From Gyrodactylus bullatarudis (Eukaryota; Platyhelminthes; Monogenea; Gyrodactylidea; Gyrodactylidae), in the NCBI GenBank assembly GCA_012064415.1, contig SSNU01000104.1, positions 1 through 64,000 of the forward strand: 64,000 nucleotides of DNA, written 5' to 3'. The translations under genes and the position numbers were made by a program. The notes below the pieces were generated by a model. The model was not told the origin of the DNA. It worked only from the letters and a program-made list of their open reading frames with translations, and did not search any database. Every line of letters begins with the position of its first letter. Position 1 is the stretch's first letter. Below are positions 21,346-57,800 of this stretch, one piece after another.

Positions 21346-24300
21346 ATGTTTACAAGATACTCACTGACTTCAAGAAAAGAAAGAGTTTATATGTCTTATA
21401 TAAAAAGATATCTTTCGCAAACCTCTCATCAAAAGCTACATAAACCGATTAAGAGACTGCTTGTTGCTAATAGAGGAGAAATTGCAATTCGAGTTTTTCG
21501 AGCATGTACAGAAATGGGAATTCAATCTGTTGCCGTCTATAGTGAGCAGGATCGCTTTCAAATGCATAGACAAAAGGCTGACGAAGCTTATCTAATCGGA
21601 AAAGGTCTTACACCTGTTGGGGCGTATTTGAACATACCAGAAATAATTAAAGTCGCTAAAACGTATGATATTGATGCGATCCATCCTGGTTATGGATTTT
21701 TAAGTGAAAGGTCAGATTTTGCAGCCGCTTGTGAAGATGCCGGTATAGTTTTTATTGGACCTTCTGTTGATGTGGTCCGAAAGATGGGTGATAAAGTTGA
21801 AGCTAGACAAACAGCTATAAATGCTAATGTAGCTGTTGTTCCTGGAGTGAACAAACCTCTTGATAATGTTGATCAAGCAGCTGAGTTTTGTGAAAAGTAC
21901 GGATATCCAGTAATACTTAAAGCTGCTTATGGCGGTGGTGGTCGAGGTATGCGAATTGTCAAGAAGGCAGAAGTAAGTAATGTATAATAATTTAATTGAA
22001 TATTTTTTTATCCTACCTTCAAACATCAAAGGTTGGAAGTTGAGGATTTTTTCTTTCAAGATTTCACGAATTTTATTCAAGATCAACCATTGCAGCTTGT
22101 TAGAACAAAGATGTGCCCTTAAAAGTTAACAAAAAAAAAGAATCATAATTACAATATGATTTACTATATTTCATAATTCTTAAAGTTCAAGTAATTTTTT
22201 TTCTAATTTGACACCCCTGAAATTATCTATAATCGTTTGGTCATGGTTTTGACAAAAATTGATATTCCTTTCAAAATTATATAGATCCCTGTGCCGGATA
22301 ATTAAAATGCTTCTTGATTTTATATTAAAAACTTGAGAAAGAGGTTTCTTGCGGGTTGGGGAAATATTTAAAGGGATCCAGACTTTTTCGATAGAACTAG
22401 GAATTTCAAGCATTTTTTTGCACCGAAGCATGTATCGATAAAACCATTATTGCTACTATTGAGTAGCATTCATGTTTGAAAGTCGTGAATTTTTCAAATT
22501 GCCACCAAATTCTAAACTTTATTACAATAAAAATCTGATTATTAATTGGGTTAACACCATAATGTGGAGAATAATATTATTTCAGATAATTTATTTGAGT
22601 TCTGAATTCCTCTTTAAGAATTTTGAAAAAGCTTCACCCCCTCCTTGTGTCAGGTAAATCCTAATTTTCAAACTAAGAGACAAGCGAACCAAAGTTGGAT
22701 CTATCTAAATTATCTAAGTTATTAAAGAATTAATTTTCTTTCCCCCAAAGGAATTGAAGCAGAATTATACATTGGCAACATCAGAGGCCAAAGCTGCTTT
22801 CGGTAATGGGGCAATGTTCATTGAAAAGTATATCGAAAGACCTCGCCATATTGAAGTTCAATTGATGGGTGACAAAACTGGAAATATTGTTCACTTTTAC
22901 GAAAGAGATTGTTCTGTTCAACGACGTCATCAAAAGGTCATTGAGATTGCACCAGCTCCAAATCTGAATCCGAAAATTCGACAAGCAATGCTGGAAGATG
23001 CTATAAAACTCTGCAGACATGTTGGCTATGAAAATGCTGGAACTGTGGAGTTTCTTTATGACCAAAAGGAAGAAAAATATTATTTCATTGAAGTTAATGC
23101 TAGACTTCAAGTGGAACATACAGTCTCGGAAGAAATCACGGGGTAAATATTTCATTTGTAGAGTTATATCGTCTAAATGCTGTTTTATTCAATTTGAGCC
23201 TGGATCTCAAGTTTTTGTATAGAAAAAACAAAAGAATAGATATTTAGAAGGTTGTGCAAATGTACAAGAAATTAAAAATAGGGTTCCTTTCAGTCAGTTT
23301 TTACCAAGATCTAATTTTAAAATGTTTAAAAATGGACAAAGATAATCCCAACCTTTTATCAGAATCGACTTGGTTCAGACCCAAATAAACGTTGCTCAAG
23401 GGAAAACTCTGGAGGAATTAGGAATACGTCAGGAGGAAATAATCCCAACTGGATATGCAATTCAGAGTAGGATAACCACTGAGGATCCGTCCAAGAATTT
23501 TCAGCCAGACTCTGGAAGGATAGAAGTTTTTCGTAGTGGTGAGGGTATGGGCATTCGATTAGATTCGGCTTGCGCCTTCTCTGGAGCCTACATATCTCCG
23601 TATTATGACTCATTGCTTTGCAAGATAATTTCTCATGCCAAAACGTTTAAGGATTCAGCCATTAAAATGGAAAGATCTCTGAAAGAATTCAGAGTTCGTG
23701 GAGTCAAGGTTAGTTTTTTGGAAAATCTTTTCAAACCATATAAGCAAATCAAATTCTTGGTTCACGTTCAGTAATAATTTTCCCAGTCTTAATTTTATTT
23801 TCAAAATAATTGGAAACTATACATTTTTCCTATAAAATCATACTTTTTCGAATAAGCACAAAGTAGAAATTACATTGTTTTTAGACATTAAACCTACTAG
23901 CTAAGTGTGGTCACTGGTTATTACTATATCCTTGTGAATCTAACTTGATGGAGATTGTCTTCTCACACCTAGATGTTAGAGTTCGGATAAGTAAGTGTCA
24001 ATTCCATAAGAGAGTCAAATAATATTTAACTCACGGTGGCAGATGTATACGTGTTTCGTCCTTATTAGGACTCGTCAGTACATACTTTTTCGATTTTGTT
24101 CTGTTATAAAAAATCTAGATCGTAAATGGAATTTTTTGATTTTTCATTGAGAATTTTACTACGAGTAATGACAAAATTGGGCTTTTTGAATTGCGTGAAT
24201 TTTGATGATTTTATGGAAAATGGGATTTTTGTATATCAGAACATGAAAAATTTTCATTTTTATTTTCCCGGGTTAAAAAAAAAATCAATTTTTGATTAAG

Positions 24301-27300: not shown

Positions 27301-30300
27301 AATATAGCTTGGATTATTACCTTAAAATGGTAGACGAATTGGTTAAGGCAGGCACTCATATCATTGGAATTAAAGATATGGCTGGTCTCTTGAAGCCTAG
27401 TTCGGCCAAGATTCTCGTTGATGCTATTCGACAAAAGTATCCAGATAAACCTATTCATTTACATACACATGACACACCAGGCGCAGGAATCGCTACTTAT
27501 TTGGCAGCTATTGAAGCTGGCTGTGATGTTGTTGATGTGGCTGTTGATTCCATGTCAGGGATGACGAGTCAGCCGAGTATGGGTGCACTTATTTCCTGCT
27601 TGAAGAATGGCGAAAAGTGAGTTTCCTCGTTCAAACATCTAACCTTTGTTAATTGTACTTTAATCAAAATTATAGTGCCACAGATATTGATTTAGAAGAT
27701 GTGATAAAATACTCTGCATACTGGGAACAAGCTCGTCTCTTATATGGACCATTTGAGTGTACAGCCACAATGAAATCAGGAAATGCAGATGTCTACACCA
27801 ATGAAATTCCTGGAGGTCAATATACAAATTTGCAGTTCCAAGCATTTTCCCTAGGCCTTGCAGATCAATTTGAATTGGTGAAGAAACGGTATGCCGAAGC
27901 AAATGAGCTTCTTGGAGATATCATCAAAGTCACTCCATCGTCCAAGGTGGTGGGAGATTTGGCACAATTCATGGTCCAGAATAAGCTCAACAAGGAGGAT
28001 GTTCTAGAGAGAGCAGGTCAGTTGAACTTTCCAAAGTCGGTCGTTGAATACTTTGAGGGAATGATTAGTGTTCCCTATGGAGGATTTCCAGAGCCCCTCA
28101 CCTCAAAAGTAAGTCAACCAAATTTAACGTTTAATTTAATCTAATTGAACCAGATTTTTATTCAGTAGTTATTTAAACATCAGATTCTAGAGGGGTTCAA
28201 AGCAGTACCAAAGCTATATGTTTAAGTTTTTTGGAATCCTACTCAGGTTGCCCACTTTTACGATTCGAATAAAAAAATTCTGAAAAAACTTTTTATAAAA
28301 AATATGGTCATTTTCCTAATTCCGATTTGGCGCAAAAATCCCATTTTTTCGAACTTTGAACTGAAAATTTTTTATTGATTTCAAAGTGAGAAAGTGATCA
28401 AAAGTTAATTTTCAAGATCACAATAAGACAAGAAAGCCGAATCTGTTCTAATGCATAACTTCATTATTGTGATTGAGGTATTCACGTAAATTTTCAAATA
28501 CGTCCGAAAATCCACTTAAAATCATATTTGGAAAATTAGAAAGAAGATTATATTAAAGCCATATGTACATTTCATAAAGCATCATCAGTGGCAATACTTT
28601 AAAAATGATAAAAGTTAAGAATTCATTGAAGATAATAATTTACAAATTATGAAAGAAATAGTGAACGTCGAAGAAAATCAGAATATAATGAGCTAAAAAA
28701 ACACCAAAACTCTCCAATAAGTAGCAACAGTGGAGAGAAAAGTGAAAAAGCTCACATAGGCCAAGGTAGTTGAAGATTATAAGAATAGTTTTTTTGAACA
28801 CATAAGTTTGGTTTGTATAGATTTATGAAGAATTTCTCCTTCACCCAAACGTCTGTACTGTCATCCCCTGCATTTTTGTATAAAATTGAAAAGTTTGAGA
28901 TTGAAGCTTCGTGCCCTTCTTGTCTTAGATGCCTGGTCACTGTTGTATCTTTCTTAAGATGATCGTTCCCTCTAGTTGATAACTTCCTAATTGTACGATC
29001 TATATATGTAGCTCCACAGTCACATTGGAATTTATAAATCAATAGAGTTTTCTCTTCAGGTTTCAGTGAATCTTTATGAATTAGGTTAAACAATCTCTGA
29101 GTTTTAAATAAAATTTTCAATTGTATGTTGTTATAATGTTGATTAATCAGATCAGTTAACTTTCTTCTTAAATCGTTACTAAAACCATCTCCTTTGAAAT
29201 TAAGTCTCATGAAAATCGTGGTTTTCTCAACTTCATCTGTGTTTTCAACGACATTTCTATCGACTGGTAAGTTGATAAATTTGTCTACAAATTTATTAGG
29301 ATAACCTTTTTCCATTAAACATATCTATTTCTTTAGGTATTTCCTCTGGACTCACTATTCTTCTTATCCTCTTTCGTAGGCCAATTACTAAACCAACTTT
29401 ATGTGAAACAGGACTAAAACTGGCATAATGGATATATTTACCATTGTCAGTCTTTTTCTTGAAAATGTTTCTTTGAATTGACCCATCTTCTTTTCTGGTT
29501 AGTTTCACATCTAAGAAGCTTAAAATATCATTAGATTCTTTTTCCATAGTAAACTTAATAATAAGTTTCATGAAAATCGTGGTTTTCTCAACTTCATCTG
29601 TGTTTTCAACGACATCTCTATCGACTGGTAAGTTGATAAATTTGTCCACAAATTTATTAGGATAACCGTTTTCCATTAAACATATCTTCGTGTTCTCTAT
29701 TTCTTTAGGTATTTCCTCTGGACTCACTATTCTTCTTATCCTATTTCCTAGGCCAATTACTAAACCAACTTTATGTGAAACAGGACTAAAACTGGCATAA
29801 TGGAGATATTTACCATTGTCAGTCTTTTTCTTGAAAATTTTTCTTTGAATTGACCCATCTTCTTTTCTGGTTAGTTTCACATCTAAGAAGCTTAAAATAT
29901 CATTAGATTCTTTTTCCATAGTAAACTTAATATTTGGATTGATTGTTGACATTGGCCAAATCGTAAATTTGGGAATCGTAAAATAGTGAATCTTTCGAAA
30001 ATGTGTCGGTGATATTTGGCTTTCTTGTCTTATTGTGATCATGAAAATCAACTTTTAATCACTCTCTCACTCTGAAATCAATAAAATTTTTTTCAGAATT
30101 TTTTAATCCAAATCATAGTAGTGGGCAACATGAGTAATACCACTAGGATTCCAAAAAATCTTTAATATATTCGAATTTTTGATGAAAAATTTTGTAATTT
30201 TTTGTAAAAATCATAGATTCCCAACTTCATATCAACCAACTTTAAATTATATTTACGAGAAAACAATAAAACTCTATAGACAACAGACATGGGATTGATC

Positions 30301-37000: not shown

Positions 37001-40000
37001 CGGCTGCAGAAATTCACAGAAATTTGTCATTATTGTGGGAAATCGAAAAATTTGAATTTATCGATTATCACAAAGAGAAAAGATTCAAAATTTAAAAGAT
37101 TAATTTTTTCCTGACATCTCGGAGAAAGATATTGAGTTTTTTGTAAAAAAATTAAATTCTCATCTTTATGCCCACTAGCTTAGAATGGTATTAACACATA
37201 TATACATCACGGGAGGGCATCCAATGATGATAAATATCAAATAGATTTTACCAAAATATAAAACAGACATTTAGGAGGAACTTCAAGAGTTGAATAAAAA
37301 ATGTAAACATACTCAAGAAGGGCAGTAAACTTTTTGGCGAAAATATTCTGCTTGATAATGGAAGCTTTACGTTTGAATACTTGACTGTGTTGCAAAAGAT
37401 TTAAGGATATATTGAAGATAATCTGTAAATAGAGAGAGAGAGAGGGAGTATCATATGAGAATATTTCACATCAACCACAATGTAGTAGACTCACTCGAGT
37501 ACTCTCATAATCCATAGTAACAGTTGAATGATTTATATTCTCATAATTTGTCAGGTAATCATGGGCCAACTGTGTGAGAAACATTATCAAACATTATTCA
37601 ATTTACATTCAATTTGTATTCTCTGAGGTCTTTAAAATCCAAAGCTAGAATTGACATGAAGATGAGAATTTACCAGAAAAACTAAATACTTTTTCCACTT
37701 AGCTAGTAACAAAAATGTTTTTTGGATCTCATAATGAAATGAGATAACAGGTTGTTGATAGGAAAAAAAAATTTGGCCATTTTTGGAAGATGCACCAATC
37801 TCCCACTTTTTCAATCTTTGGGATTAAATATTTTTAAGAATCGATTCGAAGATTTACAACAACTACATGCAGATTGGTAAAAATTTTCAATCAATATCAG
37901 ACAAGAGTTCGGATTTCCTCAGAAATTCATCATTATTGTGGGAATTCGAACAATTTGAATTTTTTGATTATCACGAAGGAAAATGATCCGAAATGTGTTA
38001 AATCTTCGAAATCGATTAAGAATTTTAAGCTTACTGATTTTTTTTCGTATTGTAAGAATTAGACTAGTTTTGGCCAAATTAATTTTTTTTTATTTCAGCA
38101 TTTTAAAATTTTTTCCTAACTATCTGGAAAAAAATTAAAGTTTTTGTAAAAATAGTGAATTCTTATCTTCATGTCAATTCTAGCTTTAGAACTTCTAGAC
38201 TTGAATAGGGCAATAACACGATTAAAATTTATTGTGATTCAATGGTATTCTATTATAACTTTTCAAATAAATCTTTTTAACATGCTTTCTTCGTCATGAA
38301 TGTGCGTAAGAATTTGACCGAAGAATAAAAACTTTAAAAAGCCCTTTAGTATAAAATTAAACAACAGCTATAAAGTGAATTCTTTCTAGCTCTTTAAATT
38401 TTATTTATTGTTTTTTATTCATATAAAAGCAATAAACTAAAGCTAATTAATATGAGAATGGGAATTTACGATTTTACAAAATTCTTGAGTTGATTTTTAG
38501 GATCACGATTAGACAAAGAAATCGAAAATGCTGCATCAAATTTTGAGATTTACTCCATCATAGTGTAAAAATTGAAATGTGATTTTTTGATCAATTTCCC
38601 TACTTGAAAATCGATGAAATTTGATGATCAAAATCCCTGAAATATAACGATTTTATCAAAATTTTTATGGTTTTCTTGTCTTATTTTGTTCCTAAAAATC
38701 AACTTTTGATCATTCAGTTTTGAAGTTTAAAAATAAGTTTTTAAAAATTTTATACTCTTTTCTGTCAAAACAGGCCTCATGATCTCGATTCCAAAAAATC
38801 TTTCTTAACGAGAAAAATTGAGAATTTTGTTAAATTCCTAAAACTCCCATCTTCATATTAACTGGGCATATATCAAATACAAAATATAAAAAACTTACAA
38901 CTAATTCAAGTTGTGCTATCTGAATATCTCTCTTGAATAGGTTGAAGCAAATCATCTGAGACTGATCCATGTCCAACTCAAAAGTCTGAAATAATTTTAA
39001 AAATGGTTCATGTTCAATGATCGTTGATGAAACTGAAAATTCTTTTCAAGGTGGGCATTTTTAAGATTTGATTACTAAGGGTTGTTTTTTTCTATCTTGA
39101 AAAATCTGACTAAACAAGAAATTATTATTCGATAAAGCCTGCTTTTCGAATTTATAAATTAGTGTTTTATAGAGAAACAGATTCATTCTACAACTTTAGA
39201 TGAATCAATCATGAAAAGATTGGTCACTGAATTTACTAATTGATTTGGTGCAGCAAATTATATAAACAATCACATTTATGTATAAAGTATTAAGTTGTTT
39301 AAATAGATAGAAAACTGGTGCAATATATAATTTGTATTTAACCTCATCTTCACGTGTTCACTTTCCTTAACTAAAACATGGCGACATGGAGCTCAGATAA
39401 GACCCTGATTATTCCTGATTCGTTGAGGGACTTTGATCATTTTATGTGGACAGTTGCCCGGATGTTCAAAGTGGCTAAAGTTACCAAAGATGAGGTCAAA
39501 ATTGACAAATTCTGTTCGCTGTTAGATGTACCATCGGCTCACAAGGTCAGGGCTTTATACCCTGGTGAGAATGATTTGGATGATGTATCATGGCCAGACT
39601 TTGTGGCAGCTTTGAGAACGTATATTTGTCCAGTTCCTTTTATATGGTCGGCGAGAACAGCCTTTTTTGACATCAAACAAGATGGACGACCGTTTAAAAA
39701 GTACACAGAGGTCTTTATGGAGGCGGCTGCAGTGGCAAAGGTTTCGGATGAACAAATCATAACCCAAATAATGAGGGGTTTGGATAATCACAAAATCGTG
39801 TCCAGAGTCACTGAATTGGATGAGGCGGTGTCGCTTGAAGTGGTCATAAAGAAGATAAAGGCCTTGGAGAAAAAAATTGATAATGAAGTGGCACAAGCGA
39901 TCAGACTTAAACCCAATGAGCAGCCCGAAGTCAATGCCATGATGGCTAGCACGAGATACTCGAGGAAGAATCCCTTCTGTTTGACTTGCAAGAAGAAGGA

Positions 40001-43000
40001 ATATCACCCAGAATCCATCAAAAAGTATGCGACATGTCGAAAGTGTAAGAAGAAAGGCCATTATGCAAGTGATTGTAAGAACCCGCAAGTCAATGAAGTA
40101 AACGAAGTGGTAGCAGAAAAAAATTTGTCTGACATCTCAATAAAGCATAGTGCCCTTTATTCATGTGTTTGTTCTCTGAAGTATGTAGAAATTGAAATCA
40201 ACACGGCAAATAAGATCAACATGCAGTTATTGGTAGATAGTGGCAGTTCAGTTAGTTTAATTCCCAGATGGTTTGCTGAGACTCATAAATTTGAATGTGA
40301 AGCCTTGTCAGCGTCGGTTAGTGGAGTTGATGGAAGTAAGGTCAAAGTGTCTGGTATCGTCAGAAACCTAAGCATAAGCTACGATGGGGCCAGTTGTGTG
40401 TGTTCTTTCCTGGTAATAGAGCTGGAGAAATTTATTTTGAATCGGCAAACGTGTGAGGTGTTGGGCATTTCATTATCTCTGATGCAGTCAAATCATGTAC
40501 GTATTAATGGTGACTCTTTCAGCGCTATCCTCAGATTAGCACGTGAGATTGATAAACGGAGCTTAATATTTCATCATAAGAATGTACCTGTCTCACTCAT
40601 GCCAAAAGTTGAATCGACTCTTAAAGAATGGCTGAAGGCCGGTATCATTGAACCAGTAGATAATCCTATCATGTCTGCACCTCTATCAATCGCACATAAA
40701 AAACGGTGAGATTAGGCTCACAAGTGGATATCACAGGACAGCTAATTTGTTCATTGATCCTGGCTGTTATCCCATCCCACGCATCGAGGAACTTCTCTCA
40801 AAGGTTTCTAATTGTAAATATTACTCGGTGATTGATCTTTCAGATGCATACCATCAAATTGAATTGGAAGAGAAGTCGAGGTACTTGACGTGCATATCAA
40901 CGCACTTGCGTTACTTCCAATTCACCAAGTTACAATTCGGATTATCAGCAGCCCCAAGGATATTCAAGGATATTCATGACGAAAGCATTGGCTGGAATAC
41001 CTCTGATCGCGGTGTTTCAGGATGATATTATAATTGGTGGATGAACGGTGGCAGAGCATGATGAAGTCTATGACATGGTTTGCAGCAGGCTGAAAACCCA
41101 TGGCTTCAAAATCAATTTGATGAAGCTTCAGAAACGTAGTGAGAAAATTCAATTTATGGGATTCATCATTGAGAATGGGAAAGTCCTACCTGATTTAACC
41201 AAAATTAGATCGTTAGGTGCACCCACCAATAAGACCCAATTGCGGAGCCTATTAGGTTTGCTACAGTATTATGGTATGATGTGCCAGAGTTATTCGTCGG
41301 TACTGAGCAAGGTATTTGCTTTACTACAAAAGAATGTGGAATGGCATTGGTTTCAGGAGTATTCGAATGCCCTTGAGACAGTGTTGACTGGAATTGCCAA
41401 AGCAAGTGTTATGATATTTGATCCGAACAAAATGGTGTACTTAAGCACAGATGCGTCAGTTGAGGGCCTGGGTGCAGTTATTTCTTATGATCCCGAAATG
41501 AAACAGGTCATCCATTACTCGAGTAGACTACTCAAACCAGCCAAAAAAATGTACTCCAATTTGGAGCGGGAAGCGTTAGCTGTAGTGTGCGGTGTCCGGA
41601 AGTTCTACAGGTACCTGATTGGCAAAAAGTTTGTCATTCAGACGGATCACAGTCCACTACAATACATATTCTCTGACCATTCGGAAAACAGACGGGTCTC
41701 CTCGAGGGTTGATGGATGGAGACAATGGTTGTCGTTATTCAATTATGAAATCAAGTATAGAGAAGGTGAAAGAATGTCATTGCCAGATGCCTTGTCAAGA
41801 GTAGGTATAAAGGATGAGGATGTTGACATGGATGATGAATTCATGGTAGTGCCACAAGTCAACTTAGTGTATCCGGATGGCTCTCATGAAACGCTCCTGA
41901 AGGCTATCAAAGAAACGGACCATCAGTTATATTGTATGTTAATTAAAGTAATCCAACGCAAGTGGAGTGGTAATACTAAGTCAGTGAGAGTTCAGTCAGT
42001 TCAAGGAGGATCTATACGTAGAGGAAGGTGTAGTGTACATTGGTGATAGAGTGGTTGTTCCTAAACCATTGAGAACGGTTATATTAGAAGCTCTGCACAA
42101 TAACCATCCGGCAAGAGATGCTATGTATGGAATGGCCAAGAGGTATTGCTGGTGGCCAGGAATGTATTATGATGTAGACCGTTGGGTGAATGGTTGCCTT
42201 ACGTGTCAGAGAAGTCGCAGAAGACGCCTCAATACTAACTTGGGAGTGTGGACGGAAACAGAGGCCTGCATGGTCAGAGTGCATGTGGAATGTGGCTCAT
42301 ATTGATACTAGTGTTGGTTGATTCCTTCTCCAAGTGGTTTCAAATGAAAATTTTACCGTCCTTGTCAGCTGAACACACCATTGATGCGCTTCATGAAGTC
42401 TTCCAATCGATTGGGTATCCAAGAGTGTTGGTATCGGATAATGGGACTAATTTTGTGGCTTCTCAAATGAAGGAGTACGCCGAGGCCAAGAACATTTCAC
42501 TTGTACAAACTCCTCCGGGTCATCACCAATCGAATGGCATTGCAGAATCACTCATCAGAGATCTACGAATGTTTTTGGCAAAGACGGTGATAACGAACAT
42601 CAGGAAAGTAATCAATGAATTTGTTGCCCACAGAAACTCCACGCCCAATTCAAAAGGCCTTACCCCCAATGATATCATATTCTCTTTTCGACCGAATTCT
42701 GAAATGGACTTGGCGCTTATGGATAGCAAGTTGCAACAGGCACTGGTGTATATCGAAGGAAAAGGCTGGTCCGAGCCAACTGAGGTTACTAAAAGTTTAC
42801 CCCACACTTGGAGAGATATGAAAGGAAGGCTGGTCCATGATGCGGATATACTACCTGTGAGGGGTAAAGCTGCAATACCCTCTCTCATCATCGCTGAAGC
42901 AAGCTCGAAAACCCCGAAACCGGTGAGGGATAGGAAGCCTACTAGCAGGTTGATTGAAACTTGTCTGTTAACTTTGGTGCAGCAAATTATATAAACAATC

Positions 43001-46000
43001 ACATTTATGTATAAAGTATTAAGTTTTTTAAATAGATAGAAAACTGGTGCAATATATAATTTTTATTTAACCTCATCTTCACGTGTTCACTTTCCTCAAC
43101 TAAAACACTAATAATATACTATGCAGCTATCTATTTATGAGACCAACTTTATGATAACATGTCTTATATTCTGTTTGATGGAATTAGACAGGAATAAATT
43201 TCTGCTTTTGTAAGGTTGTAGTAAATTTATCATTTAATTTGTATCGATTAGATAATGATATCATAAATAAAGGTAAATTTACCTGATTCCAGGTTATCTT
43301 TCCATCGACTGGTGTCATCACTTTGGTTCGGGCCACTGTTTCAATCTGATCATAAGAGTCTAACTCGATTGACAAGTGATAGTCTAAAATTGAAATGGTT
43401 GAAATCATCAAAAGTGTTTAATCAAGCAAAGAATATAGAAGTCTTTTAAATCCTAAAAGAAATAATTTTGTGGGAAATATTGCCGAACTTCTTCAAATAT
43501 ATTAGATTCTGATTTTAAGAAAATTTTTGTGATATGGTGGGGATGGCCTGATGTATCTAGGGCATCTTTCTTCTCTTTAGGTAATGATGTAACGTTGATT
43601 GTCCTTTGGATAATTTTCTCTTTCTACCCCGATTCGTAATAGCAGGTTTATGTTGCTGACCGGAGTCTTTTGTGCTAATTACAGGTTGAGAGATAATTCG
43701 ATTATAATGGGAGGTTAAAACGTAAAAAACGGAAAAACTCTGTCTAAAAACAGATTTCAAAAATTCGATTTTTACACCTCTTCTAAATTAGATAACCAAA
43801 AACCAATAGCAGATTCGGAAAGCTCACAAAATTTTGATCCTGATAGCCTTTTAAAATTTTTAAAAATCTCTTCGGAAAGTCTATTTGTTCTCTAAAACAT
43901 GGTGAAAATTCAACAAAAAAAACCAAAAATTCGAACATTACCTTTATTTGGCGTTAATTTCCGAAAGCCGATAAAACTCCACCCCTACAAAAGTCATATC
44001 AATCGACGCAGAATTTAATTTCTCATCTGATTGCGAAAATTAATTATAAAAATTTGGGAAATTTGGAATTTTGGGAAATATCGTTTTTTCCCGATTATCT
44101 CAGAAATTATAGTGAATTTTACAGATCTGAGCACAGATTCGGGATCAGCGCAAAATTTTACACCAGAATCAATTTTATTTTACTTTTTACCGCAATTTTG
44201 AGTTTTTTATGACCCCCTGTGTTATCAACTTCCGTTGACTTTTCTAGATTTTCACATTCTCTCTCGACTGTAGTTGTAACGGGGACTGATTTGTTGAGTT
44301 GATTACTTTGAGACGTATATAAACTACTTGCTCTTCTGTTTCATTGATTGCAATCTTGTCAGCTGTCTGGGCCTCAGGATTCTGGGTGGATCCTCGAGAA
44401 TCTTAGCAACCTTTTGCAACTTTTTACATTGTGTGAACCTTTTCTTGCCAGTGATGCCCAGTTTAGTTGCCAAAGATCAGGCTTCAAATCTCTAATGTAG
44501 TGTGACTCAGCCTTGCAAAGGACCTCTTCCTTGGTTGAACGTGAATCACTTGGATTGACTTGGTATAATATGCTGAAGTTGTTCACATCAGCAGTGCGAT
44601 TTGTTGAACTGAGTTGCTCCTGGACCGACGAACCTTTGTTTCCCGCACTGAGGTGTTCCTTTATTCTTACCTTGACTGGTCTCACTGTCTGCCCAACGTA
44701 GGAAGAACCACAATTACATTTAAACAAGTATATAACCCCTTTTCTTTCAAGCCAAGGGATTGAAACCTTGTTTAAATCGGGAATCAATTTCGTTGTTCTA
44801 AGGAAGTTTATGACCAGGAAATGCTCGTTTGGTTATTTCAAATAACTTGTTATTGAGTATTTGATGTGCAGCATCTCCTTAAAACGGCAACAGCAAATAT
44901 GTATAATGCCTGCGCTATCAGGCATTGTATAAATTTGGACCAAATAGATCTTCAGGAAGTTGTTCGTCATATATTAACTATGACGTTGTTCGCTCGCTAG
45001 CATGAAGACAACATAATCAGATAGTAAGCAACCAACGTTTTGGTCAATTGTAAAAATTGATTACTCAAAAATTAAACTCAGGGCACTATATGAAATACCT
45101 ATAGATAATTTTTATTCAAGTTTTATCAGTGTTATAAAAAGGTAACAAAGTTCTTTCGACATTTACTTATAAGTTACTAGTAGTAGTTTATCTAAAAGTC
45201 AGCTTTACCCTGATACCTTTTGACATTTACTTTAGTTTTAAATTTTTTATTACTCTACCCTTATTACTAAGCTTAATTGACATGAAGATGAGAATTTACT
45301 ATTTTTACAAAATACTCTATATTTTTCTCCGGATTCACAGGAAAAAATCGTTTTCTGAATTCTAAAATAGAATCAGCAAACAAGTTGTGGATATTTTAGT
45401 AGTAACGAATTTCCCGGGATTCTGGAGACTGCCAGGTATTCTTAACCAAACCGAGTAACAAGTTTAACCCTTGCACAAAATCTGGGGTCTGAGAGACCAC
45501 AAATGAACTTCCACTAAAGATAACTTATATAAAAATTAATTTTTAAGGCTGGTCTTCTAGGACATCCCTAAACAACTAATAAAAAGGCTTATTCATAGTT
45601 TATCTTAGGTTTCTTTTTTTCCCTAGTTGACTAGGATATTATGAAATCATTTGTTACTTATAAGACATATGGGGTCTCCTAGACCCCAAGTTGGTAAGTC
45701 TGCTTATATAAGGCTTGTATAACTTATTGGAATATAAAAACAATTTTCTATCTAAAAATTCATTCTGTTTTTCATGGTTAACACAAATAGATGTATTCCT
45801 CTTTGACTGACTTTCAGATTTTTTTGTTACTCAAAGCAAGATTTACTGAATTTTCAAATTTGAGACTTGAAGATTTATAACGGTAATACCTACAAAAATT
45901 TCGTTCAAATTCGTAAATCGAAACATTAAGAATTGATCATAGAAGTTCTGTAAACGACCCAAAATTACTAGAATGGCAAATTTCTTTGAACTTTTATGGC

Positions 46001-49000
46001 CGAATTTGACTGTACTTTTCACCGAGAAGAAAGGATGGCTTACTGTCAAAATCCAAGTTTCCAGAAACTGTATGAATCCTGGTAACAAGAATTCCGGAAA
46101 TTGCTTCTTCATAATCTAACGTAAAAGAATAAATCAATAAATAAATTGAACCAACTCAATAACTAAACTGATCACGGTAATGTTTACACAAAGTCTGTCT
46201 GAAAAATTGCAAAAAAAGTTAATTGATCAACAATTAAACTCTATATAATCTTGATAGGTTGAATGAATTTCAACCTTTTGAGCATAATTGATATTTTTTA
46301 TCTACAGTACAATTATTTTCTGCTTAGGTGATATATTTCCCATATTCGTTTTATTTGGCAATGAATTATTCCGAATCGCTGAATATTATAGCTTACAAAG
46401 GATCCCTACCTGACTAGTAAAAAAGAAATAATCTAAGAATGCATCTTATAATCTTTTTAAGTAAAGGTGCTTTAGTTTCTTTCAGATAGCGAGTGAATTG
46501 TATGTTTTATTCGTAAGTTTAATTGGGAATCCACTTTCAAACTATTACACTCAATGTTAGCTTCTAGAGGTTCTACTTTTATTTCTATAATCGTGAAAGA
46601 ATACTTGAAATTCTATCGAAATGAAATTGATACGAATGCGAAAAAATACGATTAACTCACCTGAGAACAAATGAATTCCATATGCATTCAAACTGGGAAG
46701 CTAAAGATACAAGAAAAATTGTTGAAAATCTTTTTGAATACTATTGAAATAAAGACATAAAATTAAAATCGTAAATGGCCTAGTATTTAGATGAAACTTC
46801 TATATTTTTACAAGAAGCTCCAATAATTTTCTCCAGACAGTTAGGAACATTGAGAATGCGCAAAATTCCCCCTTTGAAAAACATTTGACTTCAAAAATTT
46901 GATTGATTACACAGATTTAAGTAGATAGAAAAAATTGAATTTGGTTAAAAATATTTCTTTTTGCAAGAAAAAGTAGTATTTCATAATTTTTGCTCATTCT
47001 TCTTCGGGTTCAATTTCCCACAGCCATGATTGATTTCTGTGGCCTAATTCTGCATGTGGAATCTGGAAAACTACATTAAAACTGTATTCCTATAAATTGT
47101 ATAGCTTTTTTCAAAACAATATTAACGTACAGCTCCAAAATTAAATTAGAAGATCTAATTTTGCTGATTGAAAAATATACCATTTGGGACTAAAGGGGGG
47201 AGGGGGAGTTGAATAGTTCTTCACATGTTCTCTTCGGAGTATCATCACCAAAAAACATTAAATAATTTAATCAACTAACAGGCTATGATTCATTCAATTC
47301 GTATTAAAAGTAATAGCCGATGAAAAACAAAGAAAAAATCGATGAGTTTATTAACATTATACAGGCTCAAGAGATGCTTTTTATCATCAAATCACAAATT
47401 CAACATGAAATATTGGGGTATTCATTTTGAAATCCAAATACTTATGGAGTTTTGGTTTTCTCATCTTGTTCATCCATGATCTGCATTATATCTTACAATG
47501 ATACAATAAAATTATTATTAAGAGTTAGTTTATAATCAATAGAGTTGAGCAAAGTTTACCTTTTTTTCTCAACAAATCTAAAAAGCGATGATGCAACAGA
47601 TAATTTGAATTTGAAATATATGTAAGCTACATCATTAGAAATGGGACGATGATGATGATATCTTGGTATTAAGAAAAATTTTATGCATAAATCTAGGTCG
47701 CTAAGCAAATATTCAAATTAGTCTAGGCCTATTTTTTATATTAACAGTACGAAAACTTATGATATAGTCGGACAATCAAAAAATTCGAACATGATCATAT
47801 AAATTTTAAGAAAGTCTTACTCATTCTTTTGATGGTGTAAATTTTGAATTATCAACTGAAAGAGAATTTTCAATGATCCAAGATCTCGGAATAATAAAAA
47901 GTTTCTTAATGACCATAAAATTTGAATATGGGGAGTATAACCCAAGAAGAGAGTATTCAAGAAATCAACTAATCTGATATAAACCAAATGTTTGATTATA
48001 ACGTTGTTACTATAACAATCCCTGTAATTTTTATGATCCTTATTCTTAAAGAAATACTACACCTTTCTCTCCCCTTTCTCTTTCTACAGATAGGCCAATG
48101 CAAGCCAGAAGACAACATAGTCAGGTAGCAAGCGAAAAACGTTATAGTCAATCTATGTGAAACAACTCCCTGAAGAATTACTTGGTTCAAAATTATAAAC
48201 CAAATGTATTGTATTCTCAACTTGAATTTTCGGTGAAAACTATAAATCCTAGACTTCTTATCAACTAAACCTACCTCTAAGGACTACAATGCGAGAGGTC
48301 CTAGGTTGAAATCCCAGGTTGTGGCATACTGACGAGTCCAAAAATAGGACGAAACGCGCGTATATGTCTACCATATATGTATACTTGGATTATTTCTAAA
48401 TGCTTTGTGAGTTTTCTTTAGTACCAGTCTCGATGGGATCCATTAGTAAGCTGTAACATTCAGCAACATGGGCTAATCCATTACCAAATAAGACGTTCCT
48501 GTGGGATTTATTACCTAAGCACCTAGAACGAAATATTTCTAGTCAACCTTTGTAAGTATAGGTGCTGCACTATTCATGAGTCTATAAGAGGCCAGAACAA
48601 AAAAAGTATATCTAAAAAAACATAAGAAGGATTTTTGAAAATATAAAACTCGCTAAATTTCCCTTTCTCAACGTATGATAATAAAAAAAATTTTAATTTT
48701 GTCACAGAGAAATTCAGAAACATTGAACCATGTGAACCTTGAGTAAACCTATCAAAATTTTTTTTATACCTTTTTAAATTTGTTAAGAGCTGGCATCAGC
48801 TCATGGTTCGATGGAGCCTTTTGACTGTGGTTCAATTTTAGATTGAGTTCGTTTATCGTATTAATCCATTTGTTGCGCTCCTTCTCAGAGTCAATCAATA
48901 AGTTATAGCATGTATTATGAGTTCCTATTGTGAACTCAACCTTTGGCGAGTTCAATATCAGCTCCAATTGCTAATTAAATATACAAAGAAAGGTAATAAT

Positions 49001-51852: not shown

Positions 51853-54800
51853 ATGGAATTAGATGAAAAAAAGCAAAATGATCAGGAAAATCAAGAATGT
51901 ATGATGTATTTTAATTATTTTCCCTATCTCAAGTCTTTGATAGTCCACCAGAAGAGGTCGTTGAGAGTGTTGTGAATGTTACTACATCAAAAAATGCAGA
52001 TGGAAGCCTCAATCGCACTACCAGGAGAACTAAAAAGACTATTGTGACAACTGTACGAAAAATATGTGTCAAGAATTCTGTTCCAATAAGTGAAGTCGAT
52101 GAAAGTTTTGTAGAAACTAGCAAAGTAGAATCTAAGCCAGATGAAAATAATAAGGGCCTTATAATTAACACTATAACTTCTGAAGGCGATGGAGGAACTT
52201 CTGCAACGTTTGCCTATCTTCCTCCAACGACAAAAGTTTCCGAGGTAAGTTTTGAGTTTAGCCTTAATTTCATGTCAAATATTCGAAAATTCTTAATATA
52301 TGCAAGCTTATTCTATCGATTATTTAAAATTACTTTTATGGCAATAACTCGCTGTAGAAATGTACAATTTACATACAACTCTTGAAACAGTATCTCTACA
52401 TCAAATTTACTTTCTCAATATTTTTATATCAGTATGTTGTTGAGGAGAACTCCAAAAGTGGTGAACGTAAAACTCGAACACATACAACTACAACATCAAT
52501 GAGCGCTACAGCCCTCTTGAATACTCGAAGCAAGTTCAAGACAGAATCCTCATCGTGAGTATTTCATGATATTTATGAAAAAAGTAAAGGATTTAATAAT
52601 TTTTTTCGAATAACCATTGGCATTAATTGTAGATATAATAGAATCATCGTAGGAATAAACATTTTTTTATTATCTTTCATAAATAATAAAATTATAATCT
52701 CTAATTGCTTACGATTGCAAGGCTAAAAAAAGCTAAGGGGGAAAAAACAAGTGGGCACTTGGTTATGGAAAAAATCACCATCTGAATGCTAAAATATCCT
52801 CTAGAATAGATTTTCTTTTTCTCCCAGCTGGAAACAGAGATGGAGAGTAAAAAAGAAAACTTAATTCTTCTCTAATTTCAATTAATAAATCACGAGACAA
52901 AACATAGGGATGGTTTTGTTTGAAGACATAAAAATTCCACAAGAAAAACCCTCCTCTTTTTTTACTTGCTGTTGGGCAGGAGGAAAACTTGTATTACATG
53001 AGAAAAGTTGGATAGAGCATTTAATTTATCGATAACTTTTTCTCCCTTGGCTTTCATCCTATCTCGCTTTCTCCTTCTTTCTTACCAAGCAATGCACATC
53101 TGCACAAATTTACTGGCTAATCAATATATTTGACAACTACTAATACTGCTGCTGCTATTAGTTGTTCCTTTTTAGCTTCTTGTTTTCCTTCCTCCCTGGA
53201 ATTCAACATTCAACAGTTATCATTATTAGTATTACACTATGCTTTATTTGGTTATTCATGATGCTCCCAATCTAACCACATGTTTGAAATTGTTACAAAA
53301 GTCCTTCTTTTTCCCCTTGAATGATCCAATATCAATTTTTCAAGGGATATGGTATTTTACAGAGATGTTAAGTCCGAGAATAATTATTTCCGATATGATA
53401 TCTCAAATAACATTGAATTCATTTCTTTAATGGTATCTTTTTTAAAATTCATTTATTCTATGGTACGTTTTTTAAAGTTGATTTTAACAAAAAATTTCAT
53501 CTCAAAATGAAAAAGAGGGAATTTGGCTCTAACTCTTTGAAAATATTTTTTCTTTGTATCGTAAAAGTGGTTCTCATGATCTAGATTTAAAAAGATCTTC
53601 ATTAAATTCAAATTTTTGATTGAATAACTGAGAATTTTGTTAGAAATATAAATTCCCATTTTCATATTAACTTTAGTCTTGGAAAAGTTCTTAAAAATTC
53701 ATGAAATTCTATTTGTTGAAATGAATAAACTTGAAGTTTTCAGAGTGTAAGAAATCAACTTCAAAAAAAACATACCTCACGATGAAAGTAATGATGATGG
53801 CATATGGGAGAAACATAACATAGAATAAATATTTTGATCCATCAAAATATCAATGTTATTTTAGATACCAGACTTACCATATCTCTTAAAAGTAACCATG
53901 TCTGACAGATTATAAATACCCCATTTTTGAATAACTTGCTCTATTTGAAAACAAAAACAAATTTTTGAAAATCCTCTGTTGGCAAAGTTTAGAATTTGGG
54001 ATTAATACTACATGTATAATATTAGAGGGATATTTCTATATTAATCCTATATAAATGCTTATCGATAATAATAATCTCTAACCCTCTACGTCCCAGCATA
54101 TCATTTCTTTTTAATATTAGAAATGATTCATTCAGATCTTAAAACATGAATATCCGAGATGAACAAGATGGTTTTGAACTACAGAGTAATGAGATAACTT
54201 ATCTTAGGATTTGCTGTACGAATGTTCCTTTGTCTTTGTTTATTCAAAAAGATGGTATAGCTATGGGATCACCTCTAAGTCCTCTTTTAGCAGATATCTT
54301 AGGTTAGTTAGAATTAAATAAAATGTCTGATACTACCAATACTTTCACTGATTTATGCATCAGATATGTTGATGACACTTTTATTCAAATGTTTCAGTAG
54401 ACGATTTTTTCTTAAAGATGAATTCGTTTCATCCTAATATTAAATTTACGATGGAAAAAGAGTCTAATGAGAGTTTGAGTTTCTTAAAATGTCAAACTAA
54501 CTAGGAAGGAAGATCGGTCAATTCTAAGAAATATCTACAAGAAGAAGAATGATAATGGAAAATATCTTCATTATGCCAGTTTCAGTCCTCTATCTCATAA
54601 AGTTGGCTTAGTAATTGGTCTAGGAAAGAGGATAAGAAGGATTGCTAGTCCAGAGGAATGGCCAAAAGAAATAGAAGAGTCAAAATTACGTTTAAATGAG
54701 AATGGTTATCCTAACAGATTTGTAGACAAATTTATCAATATGTCTGATGATGTAGATGAAAGGGTCGACAGAGATGAAGGAGAGAAGACAACCATATTCA

Positions 54801-57800
54801 TGAAACTTAATTTTAAAGGTGATGGTTTCTGTAATGATGTAAGGAGACGACTGGTTAATCTTATTGATCAACATTATGATAATATACAATTGAAAATTGT
54901 ATTTAAAACCCAAAGATTATTCAGTTTGATTCATAAGGATTTACTAAAGCCTGAAGAAAAGACTCTTTTGATTTACAAATTCCAATGCGACTCTGGAGCT
55001 TCTTATATAGAACGTACGATTAGGAAATTGTCAACTAGGTCAAATGATCATCTAAAGAAGGATACAGCAGTGAAAAGACATATCAAACAGGAAAATCATG
55101 AGGCTTCGATTTCTCAATTTTGTATAAAAATGCGGGTGATGACAGCACAGATTTGTGGGTGAAGGAGAAATTCTTCATCAATCACTTTAAACCAAACCTG
55201 TGTTTTCAGAAAAATTACTCTTATAATCTTCAATTACCTTTTATGAGCCTTTGTGAGCTTTTTCACTTTTCTCTTCACTGTTGCTATTTATTGAAGAGTT
55301 TTGGTGTTTTTTCAGCTCACATTATATTCTTATATTTTTCAACTTTTACTATACTTATTTCAAAATTTGTAAAATATTATTTTCAATGAATTTTAAAATT
55401 TTATCATTATTTATGTGTCACTACTGATGAAATGTACATTTCGTGAATAAAAAATCTTTTCTCATGTATCTACAAATATGATTTTAAGCGGATTTTTGGA
55501 CGTTTTTGATAAATTACGTAAATCATATCAACGCCAATATCACATATAAATACCCATGGATTTAATTTGAGTAGGGTTTTTCTATAATGAAAATGAAGTA
55601 GTTTTTCATAAAGAAGTATGATTAATCTATGAAAATATTGATATTTCAAGCATGACTATATATAGATTATCTGATTTTCAAATTATAGGCAGCTACAAGA
55701 TAGGTCTAATCTTACTGTAGACTGATCAGTAGGGTAGGGTTTAATTTAAAGCCTCATTTTCATACAAACATAAAAACATAAATTTTTATGAGTTCTTGCT
55801 ACGAAATCAATCAAATTCTTGAATATCCTTATCAACAATTGAGTTTTTACTTTTTAAAATCGAAAATGGTAATTTTGTCTTTAAAAGAAGCATAACCATG
55901 AAATTCATTGTCCTATGATGACGATGGGAATAAGTCATTCCTCACAAATACTGTATGCCTAGTTCTTTTATAAAAGGGTTATTTAGGGAAATATTAGGTT
56001 GCGTCAAAAGAAATGAGACTTTAGAGATAAAAAAATATATTCAAAAATCTGCATAAAAAAGAGAAAAATCAGGTATCAAAATATTCTCCAGCAGAATTAA
56101 TACATTTCTGCCAACGAATAGGAAGCTGATCAATCCCATCAGCGTAAAACTCTTGACTTTTTGAATCAAAAAAGTTGATAAGGCCATTTTCGACTTCTCC
56201 TTTGTTGAGGAATTTTTTCCCCTTTAAAAAGTGTTGCATCGACCTGAAAAGATGATAATCTGACGGGGCTAAGTCAGGACTATAAGGAGGATGTTCTATG
56301 ACATCGATATTCTCATCTTGAAAAAAATTTTTGACATCTCTTCCCAGATGAGGTCGGGCGTTATCTTGTTGGAATGAAATCCTTCCAAATCTTGGGAATT
56401 TATCCTTCAATTTGGCAACCATCTGCCTTAATGAGTCTAGATATCTTTGAGAAGTGACAGTCTGACCATAATCCATAAGCTCATAGTGGATTACTCCTTT
56501 TCTTGTCCAGAAAACTGTGAGCATAACTTTCTTCGAGAACCTGTTTGGAGAGGGTTGAGTTGCTTTCTCCCCAACTCGTTTCCAAGACCTTTTTCGACTC
56601 TGATCCTGAAGATAGATCCACTTTTCGTGGTTGACAGGGGTATTTTGAAAAATGCCGGGACACACCGGAATATTTTTGAAAAATGCCATGAAATTTTTCA
56701 ATTTTTGTCTAAATCTCTATCTTGATGTATGTTTGCTTAGTTTTTGTCTTGATATCCTGTTGCCAAGATTTCTCAATTCAATGGTTTAGGAAAAGGTGCT
56801 CCAACCCCAATCTCTCTGCCCGGTGTGGTGTAGTGGTATCTCTCTCACCTCTCATTCGGACCCTCTTACTCTCGGTCCTAGGTTCAAACCCCCCCACACC
56901 GGGCATATTGAACACTCTTTCCCTGTTCCCTTATTTTTACAAATAATTTCTATGAATAAATATAAATGTTTCAATTTCAAAAAGAAAAGTTTGCTTAGTT
57001 TTTGTCTTGATATCCTATTGCCAAGATTTCTCAATTCATTGGATTACGAAAAGAACATAAGAAAAAGTCAATGGATCCAAATGTATTCAACGTATTTTTC
57101 ACAAAATTTTTTCTGCCTCAGATCTGTATCTCTTTTTCTTTGGCCGTCCTCGCTGAGAGATCTTGTCTTTACCTATCAAATCTGTTTCCGCGAGTTTATT
57201 TATGTCGCAGTAGATCAATTCATTGCCGTACATTTTGATCATTTCATTTACTTTGAAATGTTTCGCGACCATATGCTCGAAAGGTTTGATAAATGAATAT
57301 TAGGTGGCAATGATATGTGCGGAGGTAGGTTTTTAGGGGGTTTGGTTGCTATAAGATTTTTTTTTGTTGATGGGAGATCATTTATGTAAAGAATCGTAGC
57401 CTCATAGGGATTGCTAATACCTTGGCAACCGGCATTTTTCAAAATACCCCTGTCAACCACTATTATTTCCCTAAATAACCCATGAAATAATTTCTTTATA
57501 AGTACTGTATTATAATAAGATATAGATCGTTAGATAGACCTAAATTAGTTTTGTGCCATCTTTATGGGTCTAATTCATCTCAGAGGCCCTAAAAATTTTC
57601 CATAGGGAAGAGTGCCTGCCTTGTTCTCTTAAGAAACAAAATTTTCCTTTTACATTCACCGACACACATCGTACTCTCTCTCGAGTATGCTCTTGAGAAT
57701 AGAGTAAAATTAAAATTAAATTAAACAAAACATAAATGGGCTCTTCATCATCATATATCTGAGATAATATATTTCAAGAGTCATGAAAATTAATCAACTT

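Follow-up and report, generated by a model that had tools for sequence, protein, structure and literature searches.

The hammerhead ribozyme detected in a 64-kb stretch of Gyrodactylus bullatarudis DNA (the window, i.e., the whole stretch that was analysed) belongs to a dispersed family of 369-bp repeats, which we read as a tRNA-type hammerhead SINE or retrozyme that is likely moved by the enzymes of Penelope-like elements (PLEs), probably from circular RNA. As judged from the genome sequence, many copies form head-to-head pairs, most of which end at two sites, one of each per pair, and nearly half of which lie between flanking repeats. PLEs are described as a strong candidate for the copying of animal hammerhead circles on the grounds of co-occurrence, type I hammerheads, and tandem copies (PMC7229834, available part), and retrozyme repeats are said, in the available part of a review, to show no motif that reveals the copying enzyme (PMC7761336). 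In the hammerhead SINE, it is the scars of insertion that point to enzymes of PLEs, a finding that bears on the copying enzyme of animal hammerhead circles and on how ribozyme-carrying elements move.

The ribozyme occupies positions 48323–48368 on the plus strand, where Rfam model RF00163 (Hammerhead_1) matches from 1 to 45 of its 45 positions with 39.4 bits and an E-value of 1.8e-6, the curated cut-off being 34 bits. This is the sole Rfam match above cut-off in the whole window, and a laxer Rfam scan of the window revealed no second ribozyme at E ≤ 1. The sequence-only reading that preceded this analysis had claimed a well-formed type I hammerhead with all core residues and three stems, and both core and stems are seen in the Rfam alignment: stem I has six pairs, stem II is GUCC/GGAC, and stem III is ACGC/GCGU. 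Its cleavage triplet, GUA rather than GUC, is read at 48360–48362, and its predicted cleavage position A48362 agrees with these coordinates, the cut being predicted after this residue (letters checked). Stems II and III look like the Rfam consensus, which we take to mirror the schistosome Sm-alpha hammerhead. Because the 46 nt do not stand out in free-folding energy (z −0.24; 74 of 200 shuffles equally good), support for the hammerhead comes from the covariance-model score and from the copies. We regard the motif as confirmed at the sequence level, with self-cleavage as a prediction.

A genome-wide covariance-model search for copies, which the sequence-only reading had proposed, yielded at least 72 RF00163 matches at E ≤ 1 in the 77.3-Mb, 471-contig genome assembly, at least 29 of them above cut-off; these are lower bounds since 73 were scored among 11,180 loose candidates. 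BLAST with positions 48180–48480 gave at least 57 genome matches (40 scored among 621 candidates). A search with the tail brought up 879 preliminary candidates. From the loci L042 and L001 we derived a dispersed repeat unit of 369 bp (unit positions are given as U), which consists of a leader, a box A-like TTGGACGAGTGG at U63, a box B-like GGTTCAAATCC at U100, the hammerhead from U119, and a tail that stops near U339 or U371. The twelve core letters tested are unchanged in 40 of the 51 hammerheads extracted from copies, 25 of which also retain all 14 pairs, and GTA is the triplet in 47. The proposed family of hammerhead-carrying SINEs or retrozymes is thus supported by the dispersed unit, by box A- and B-like motifs in the relatives, and by the shared GTA. 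A chance hammerhead-like sequence would be compatible with the unremarkable free folding, but it is at odds with the E-value and the intact core letters and is refuted by the genome copies from both searches; we assign it a negligible probability.

Further copies with covarying stems had been expected: the copies exist, whereas the covariation is weak because the stems are nearly invariant among copies. Changes on both sides of a pair that still allow pairing occur in three cells (51 copies, 14 pairs), all in stem I, and we do not take them as evidence. Selection on the ribozyme was also considered and rejected: across all 53 loci, the hammerhead letters vary less than the rest of the unit (0.044 versus 0.060), a difference that is gone in the 30 loci selected independently of the ribozyme, where the hammerhead is no better conserved (0.052 versus 0.051). 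A diverged hammerhead in L088 (minus strand, about position 306), with UCC/GGA as stem II and ACGCGUUU replacing ACGCGCGU, hints at more subfamilies.

In kind, the element combines the attributes of a tRNA-derived SINE (dispersed short non-coding copies with flanking target repeats, of at least 8 bp in 16 of 34 pairs) with those of a metazoan non-LTR retrozyme (a non-coding repeat of a few hundred base pairs with a type I hammerhead). The head-to-tail dimers or multimers of retrozymes were not found in the 53 loci, in which the longest stretch is 451 nt, or 1.2 units; nor did the search for tandem copies suggested by the sequence-only reading bear out, no array of whole direct units being present in these loci. 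The element is not a PLE itself, the 369-bp unit being too short for an ORF with reverse transcriptase and GIY-YIG domains.

The window copy is a 5′-truncated, single-armed element at about 48281–48581 on the plus strand. Similarity to its relatives starts at 48281 and stops at 48577–48581, and the unit itself matches at 48292–48581. By comparison with the relatives' fuller heads, and with arm likeness judged by eye, 48281–48316 (plus) is a remnant of the tRNA-like head that starts inside the anticodon-like arm and has lost box A. A T-arm or box B had been reported just before the hammerhead; a box B-like GGTTGAAATCC is indeed present at 48304–48314 (plus), but it is one letter off the relatives' motif, and box A is absent. 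The tail contains a putative hairpin at 48519–48565 (plus), with an outer stem (48519–48525/48559–48565) and an inner stem (48523–48528/48537–48542) that share letters, and the end site B described below lies directly 3′ of the inner stem. Site A (U369–U373) forms the 3′ outer end of the copy at 48577–48581 (plus). No flanking duplication was found for this copy (L031), which we regard as a dead copy of a non-autonomous retroelement, i.e., of a tRNA-type SINE with a type I hammerhead.

The tRNA origin of the head rests on boxes A and B since ARAGORN detected no tRNA in the window or in the 73 hammerhead-associated heads, and Rfam none in the fuller copy L049. A fuzzy box A was recovered in 23 of the 73 hammerhead-like starts, at least three of the 23 being spurious. 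The head presumably resembles tRNA-Ser.

Several other sequences in the window were recorded. Diverged stretches of the 369-bp unit at 46321–46471 may represent an older insertion of the hammerhead SINE; one on the minus strand matches at 75% over 112 nt, and the others are short and include one on the plus strand. At 24035–24080 on the minus strand, 46 nt match the hammerhead portion of the unit (80%) below Rfam detection. Just upstream of the window copy, 48007–48199 is a different dispersed repeat that is also present in L004, L034, and L053. A retrotransposon with gag-, protease-, and RNase H-like domains, and an integrase-like part recognized by eye, spans 39375–42994, and a mariner-like transposase fragment is found at 56069–56716. 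The closest named match of an ABHD13-like protein, among the best 120 of 1429, is from the monogenean Cichlidogyrus casuarinus (40%), followed by Schistosoma and the monogenean Protopolystoma; for an LRR gene, the nearest match is from Spirometra (32%), a dragonfly ranking third and Dicrocoelium sixth. The protein matches point to a flatworm, most likely a monogenean, as the host and do not support a schistosome.

The evidence on how the family moves comes from the anatomy of its insertions. We fetched 60 loci, which are not a random sample because they were obtained via the ribozyme (30) or the window sequence (30), and removal of seven double fetches left 53 distinct loci. BLAST pieces were grouped by script, leaving out pieces of ≤20 bits and clusters of <100 bp. 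The 54 insertions recognized comprise 34 that were scored as head-to-head inverted pairs, including some doubtful ones (L060, with a 26-nt match as left arm; L051, with a right arm of 21 nt; and L039, with an over-extended left end), and 20 of single orientation (12 minus, 8 plus). The outer ends gather at two positions separated by 32 nt, called site A (median U371) and site B (median U339). In 22 of the 34 pairs, each outer end lies on one of these sites, 14 of these pairs being A/B and eight B/A with neither A/A nor B/B observed, an outcome with a probability of 2.4e-7 if the ends were independent (p 0.5); in 12 pairs, at least one end lies away from both sites.

Exact repeats of 8–13 bp flank 16 of the 34 pairs compared with 0.6% of 9,885 mismatched flank pairs from different loci (repeats reaching as far as 5 nt into the element were accepted in both), which argues that a head-to-head pair is one insertion. 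The remaining 18 pairs have no flanking repeat of at least 8 bp, and repeats of at least 7 bp are found at three of the 20 single-arm insertions (L018, L028, and L038). In L045, the pair interrupts a copy of the resident PLE-A, 12 letters of which are repeated. The two arms overlap across at least 30 unit positions in 20 of the 22 A/B-type pairs, which shows that they are two cDNAs and not one that was split. Two features looked for as marks of PLE machinery are therefore present in the family, namely, head-to-head copies within one target duplication (34 of 54 insertions two-armed, repeats at 16 of 34) and two start sites about 30–40 nt apart with a tail on one end (U371 and U339, one each in all 22 classifiable pairs). 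Six arms (in L033, L035, L037, L042, L049, and L059) have their inner end at U289–290, perhaps reflecting a pause or microhomology in the joining of two cDNAs.

Inverted pairs might instead be produced if an ordinary hammerhead SINE were moved by a LINE, as SINEs usually are, through twin priming or nested insertions. SINEs are described as mobilized by non-LTR retrotransposons (PMC10886601, available part), and no tail of a partner PLE was found among the PLE-A and PLE-B sequences tested. Twin priming splits one RNA, however, and is hard to reconcile with arms that overlap, and nested insertions would neither place one duplication around the whole pair, as in 16 of 34, nor impose an A end and a B end on each pair, as in 22 of 22; we consider LINE-driven movement unlikely. 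Inverted arms and target repeats would also suit a foldback DNA transposon that carries a hammerhead in its arms by accident, but arm length and inner end vary from copy to copy, the two ends differ in length by about 32 nt, and 20 of the 54 insertions have a single orientation, so that we hold this origin to be very improbable.

The genome contains PLEs that could be compared with the SINE. Two PLE queries taken from the window each have at least 150 genome matches. Fragments of the first family, PLE-A, lie at 28480–29939, which includes a 371-bp direct duplication (29201–29560 and 29562–29932), and at 54435–55540; a piece of a second family, PLE-B, lies at 44374–44832 and contains Pfam GIY-YIG. 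The longer PLE-A frame encodes RVT_1 and has a C-terminus resembling the GIY-YIG piece of the window (36% over 110 aa), no Pfam domain was detected on the short PLE-A window pieces, and none of the best 120 of 521 PLE-A relatives is named Penelope. By pattern, a hammerhead-like motif follows the PLE-A ORF, and no Rfam match was obtained in 20 PLE-A loci. In PLE-B, a hammerhead-like pattern lies immediately ahead of the start of the following ORF in five of seven downstream stretches.

The 3′ ends of PLE-A fall into two groups (about 297–321 and 356–374), approximately 50–65 nt apart rather than 32, and in six PLE-A loci whose two arms could be paired, a short end always goes with a long one (6/6). 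These six pairs were hand-picked by eye among 30 loci, with L061, L064, and L065 (further pieces) unused, and a flanking repeat was identified by script in one of the six; in L067 and L082, a shared repeat of 11 and nine letters, respectively, appears only on the assumption that the BLAST match stops about 12 nt early. The comparison thus sets SINE pairs of which several are doubtful against a control of six chosen loci. The SINE tail resembles no PLE tail in the 30 PLE-A loci or in the seven PLE-B stretches (one mostly N), and no partner PLE was recognized by its tail in these two families.

Available parts of published studies describe PLE insertion in similar terms. A typical Penelope insert has a duplication of 9 bp and inverted pLTRs, mostly head-to-head, one of which may bear a 31-bp tail (PMC3846280). 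The PLE enzyme of Anolis is reported to cut and extend both target strands and to start at two adjacent internal RNA sites, which accounts for the tail (PMC11167929). The rule of one site per strand that emerges from the A/B pairs is therefore not what the Anolis study describes since the available part of that study reports no strand difference in the start site.

The arms also indicate what kind of RNA was copied. Of 66 arms that end at A or B, 44 extend beyond the predicted cleavage site of the hammerhead (U158/U159) and a single arm ends at U150–170, so a linear RNA cut at this site was not the usual template; the cDNA runs through the cleavage site. Eleven of 93 arms extend from U1 into the end of the preceding unit, two of them marginally (L034 by 7 nt and L054 by 6 nt), the longest arm reaching 451 nt (1.2 units) and exceeding one unit. 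Such junction-crossing arms may be explained by a circular or a multimeric template, and the lack of any array of whole direct units in the 53 loci would favor the circle. PLE-type insertion from linear uncut or multimeric transcripts, in which the hammerhead plays no role, is a tenable if doubtful alternative: hammerhead mutants of the Anolis PLE insert normally in vitro (PMC11167929, available part), most classified arms pass the cleavage site (44/66), and the longest arm covers 1.2 units. Transcripts of this kind would, however, have to supply the preceding unit to the 11 junction-crossing arms in a genome whose 53 sampled loci show no whole-unit direct array, and animal hammerhead repeats are described as being expressed as circles (PMC7229834, available part).

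A fold of the template is compatible with defined start sites. None of 100 shuffles folds as well as the L042 unit (z −2.7 linear, −2.5 circular), whose tail, inspected by eye, has a stem GCACCUA/UAGGUGC before site A and an inner stem CUAGAA/UUCUAG before site B, the two stems having letters in common. Folding an alignment of 36 tails, some of whose rows are ill-aligned, returned no pairs, and we treat the tail hairpins as a lead only.

Movement by PLE enzymes from a probably circular RNA may then be pictured as follows. Boxes A and B of an intact unit would drive its transcription, probably by Pol III; longer RNA would be cut to a length of 369 nt by the hammerhead and circularized by a host ligase. 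A PLE reverse transcriptase with GIY-YIG endonuclease would cut the target strands about 8–13 nt apart and begin cDNA synthesis within the RNA from two fixed positions separated by 32 nt, each used on one target strand, and the two cDNAs would meet head to head and be joined. Pol III transcription, cleavage, circularity, and the PLE protein as the inserting agent are steps that we infer. We lean slightly toward the full version, in which the SINE is moved by a PLE enzyme and not by a LINE, the two tail hairpins of a probable hammerhead-made circle set the start sites, and a dimeric enzyme uses one per strand, producing the lopsided pair. If this is true, the proposal that animal retrozymes move by way of PLEs would gain direct structural support. 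The one-site-per-strand rule makes a specific claim, open to testing, on two-strand initiation by a PLE enzyme, and the 369-nt unit offers a compact natural template for testing PLE initiation.

Hammerhead SINEs as a kind are already known: the hammerhead SINE-like element of Schistosoma mansoni is described as tRNA-derived (tRNA-Gln-TTG; PMC2770079), a member of the S. mansoni family has 335 bp (PMC8490949), and platyhelminths are listed among the hosts of metazoan hammerhead repeats (PMC7229834; available parts of all three). In the open-licence literature, we found no paper combining hammerhead ribozyme and monogenea, and those combining hammerhead and Gyrodactylus are, by title, not on ribozymes; among the matches listed, no title concerns PLE-moved SINEs, and none pairs "SINE" with "mobilized by Penelope." The new part is thus the insertion anatomy, no animal hammerhead SINE with PLE-type insertion ends having been found in the open-licence literature searched.

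With Sm-alpha and Sj-alpha, the SINE shares dispersal, a type I hammerhead, and a flatworm host; the S. mansoni element is described as tRNA-derived (PMC2770079, available part). It appears to differ from them in matching no named tRNA by the tools used and in having GUA; the head-to-head A/B pairs are a feature of the SINE studied here, the comparison with Sm-alpha having covered the Rfam hammerhead consensus. Like metazoan non-LTR retrozymes, it is a non-coding unit of a few hundred base pairs with a type I hammerhead, low GC, and resident PLEs (PMC7229834, available part). Unlike them, it has box A- and B-like motifs, whereas retrozymes seem to be without promoters according to the available part of a review (PMC7761336), and it occurs as inverted pairs and single arms, not in tandem arrays. 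With PLEs, it has in common head-to-head inverted copies, flanking repeats of 8–13 bp, and an extension of about 32 nt at one end, but it contains no ORF and no pLTR and has no sequence in common with the PLEs tested; its hammerhead is canonical and over the Rfam cut-off, in contrast to PLE-A, whose 20 loci gave no Rfam match. Adineta Penelope with a gene in trans resembles the SINE in that inserted non-PLE sequence shows the anatomy of a PLE, with a duplication of 8 bp (PMC3846280, available part), but its cargo lies between pLTRs, none of which was found in the SINE.
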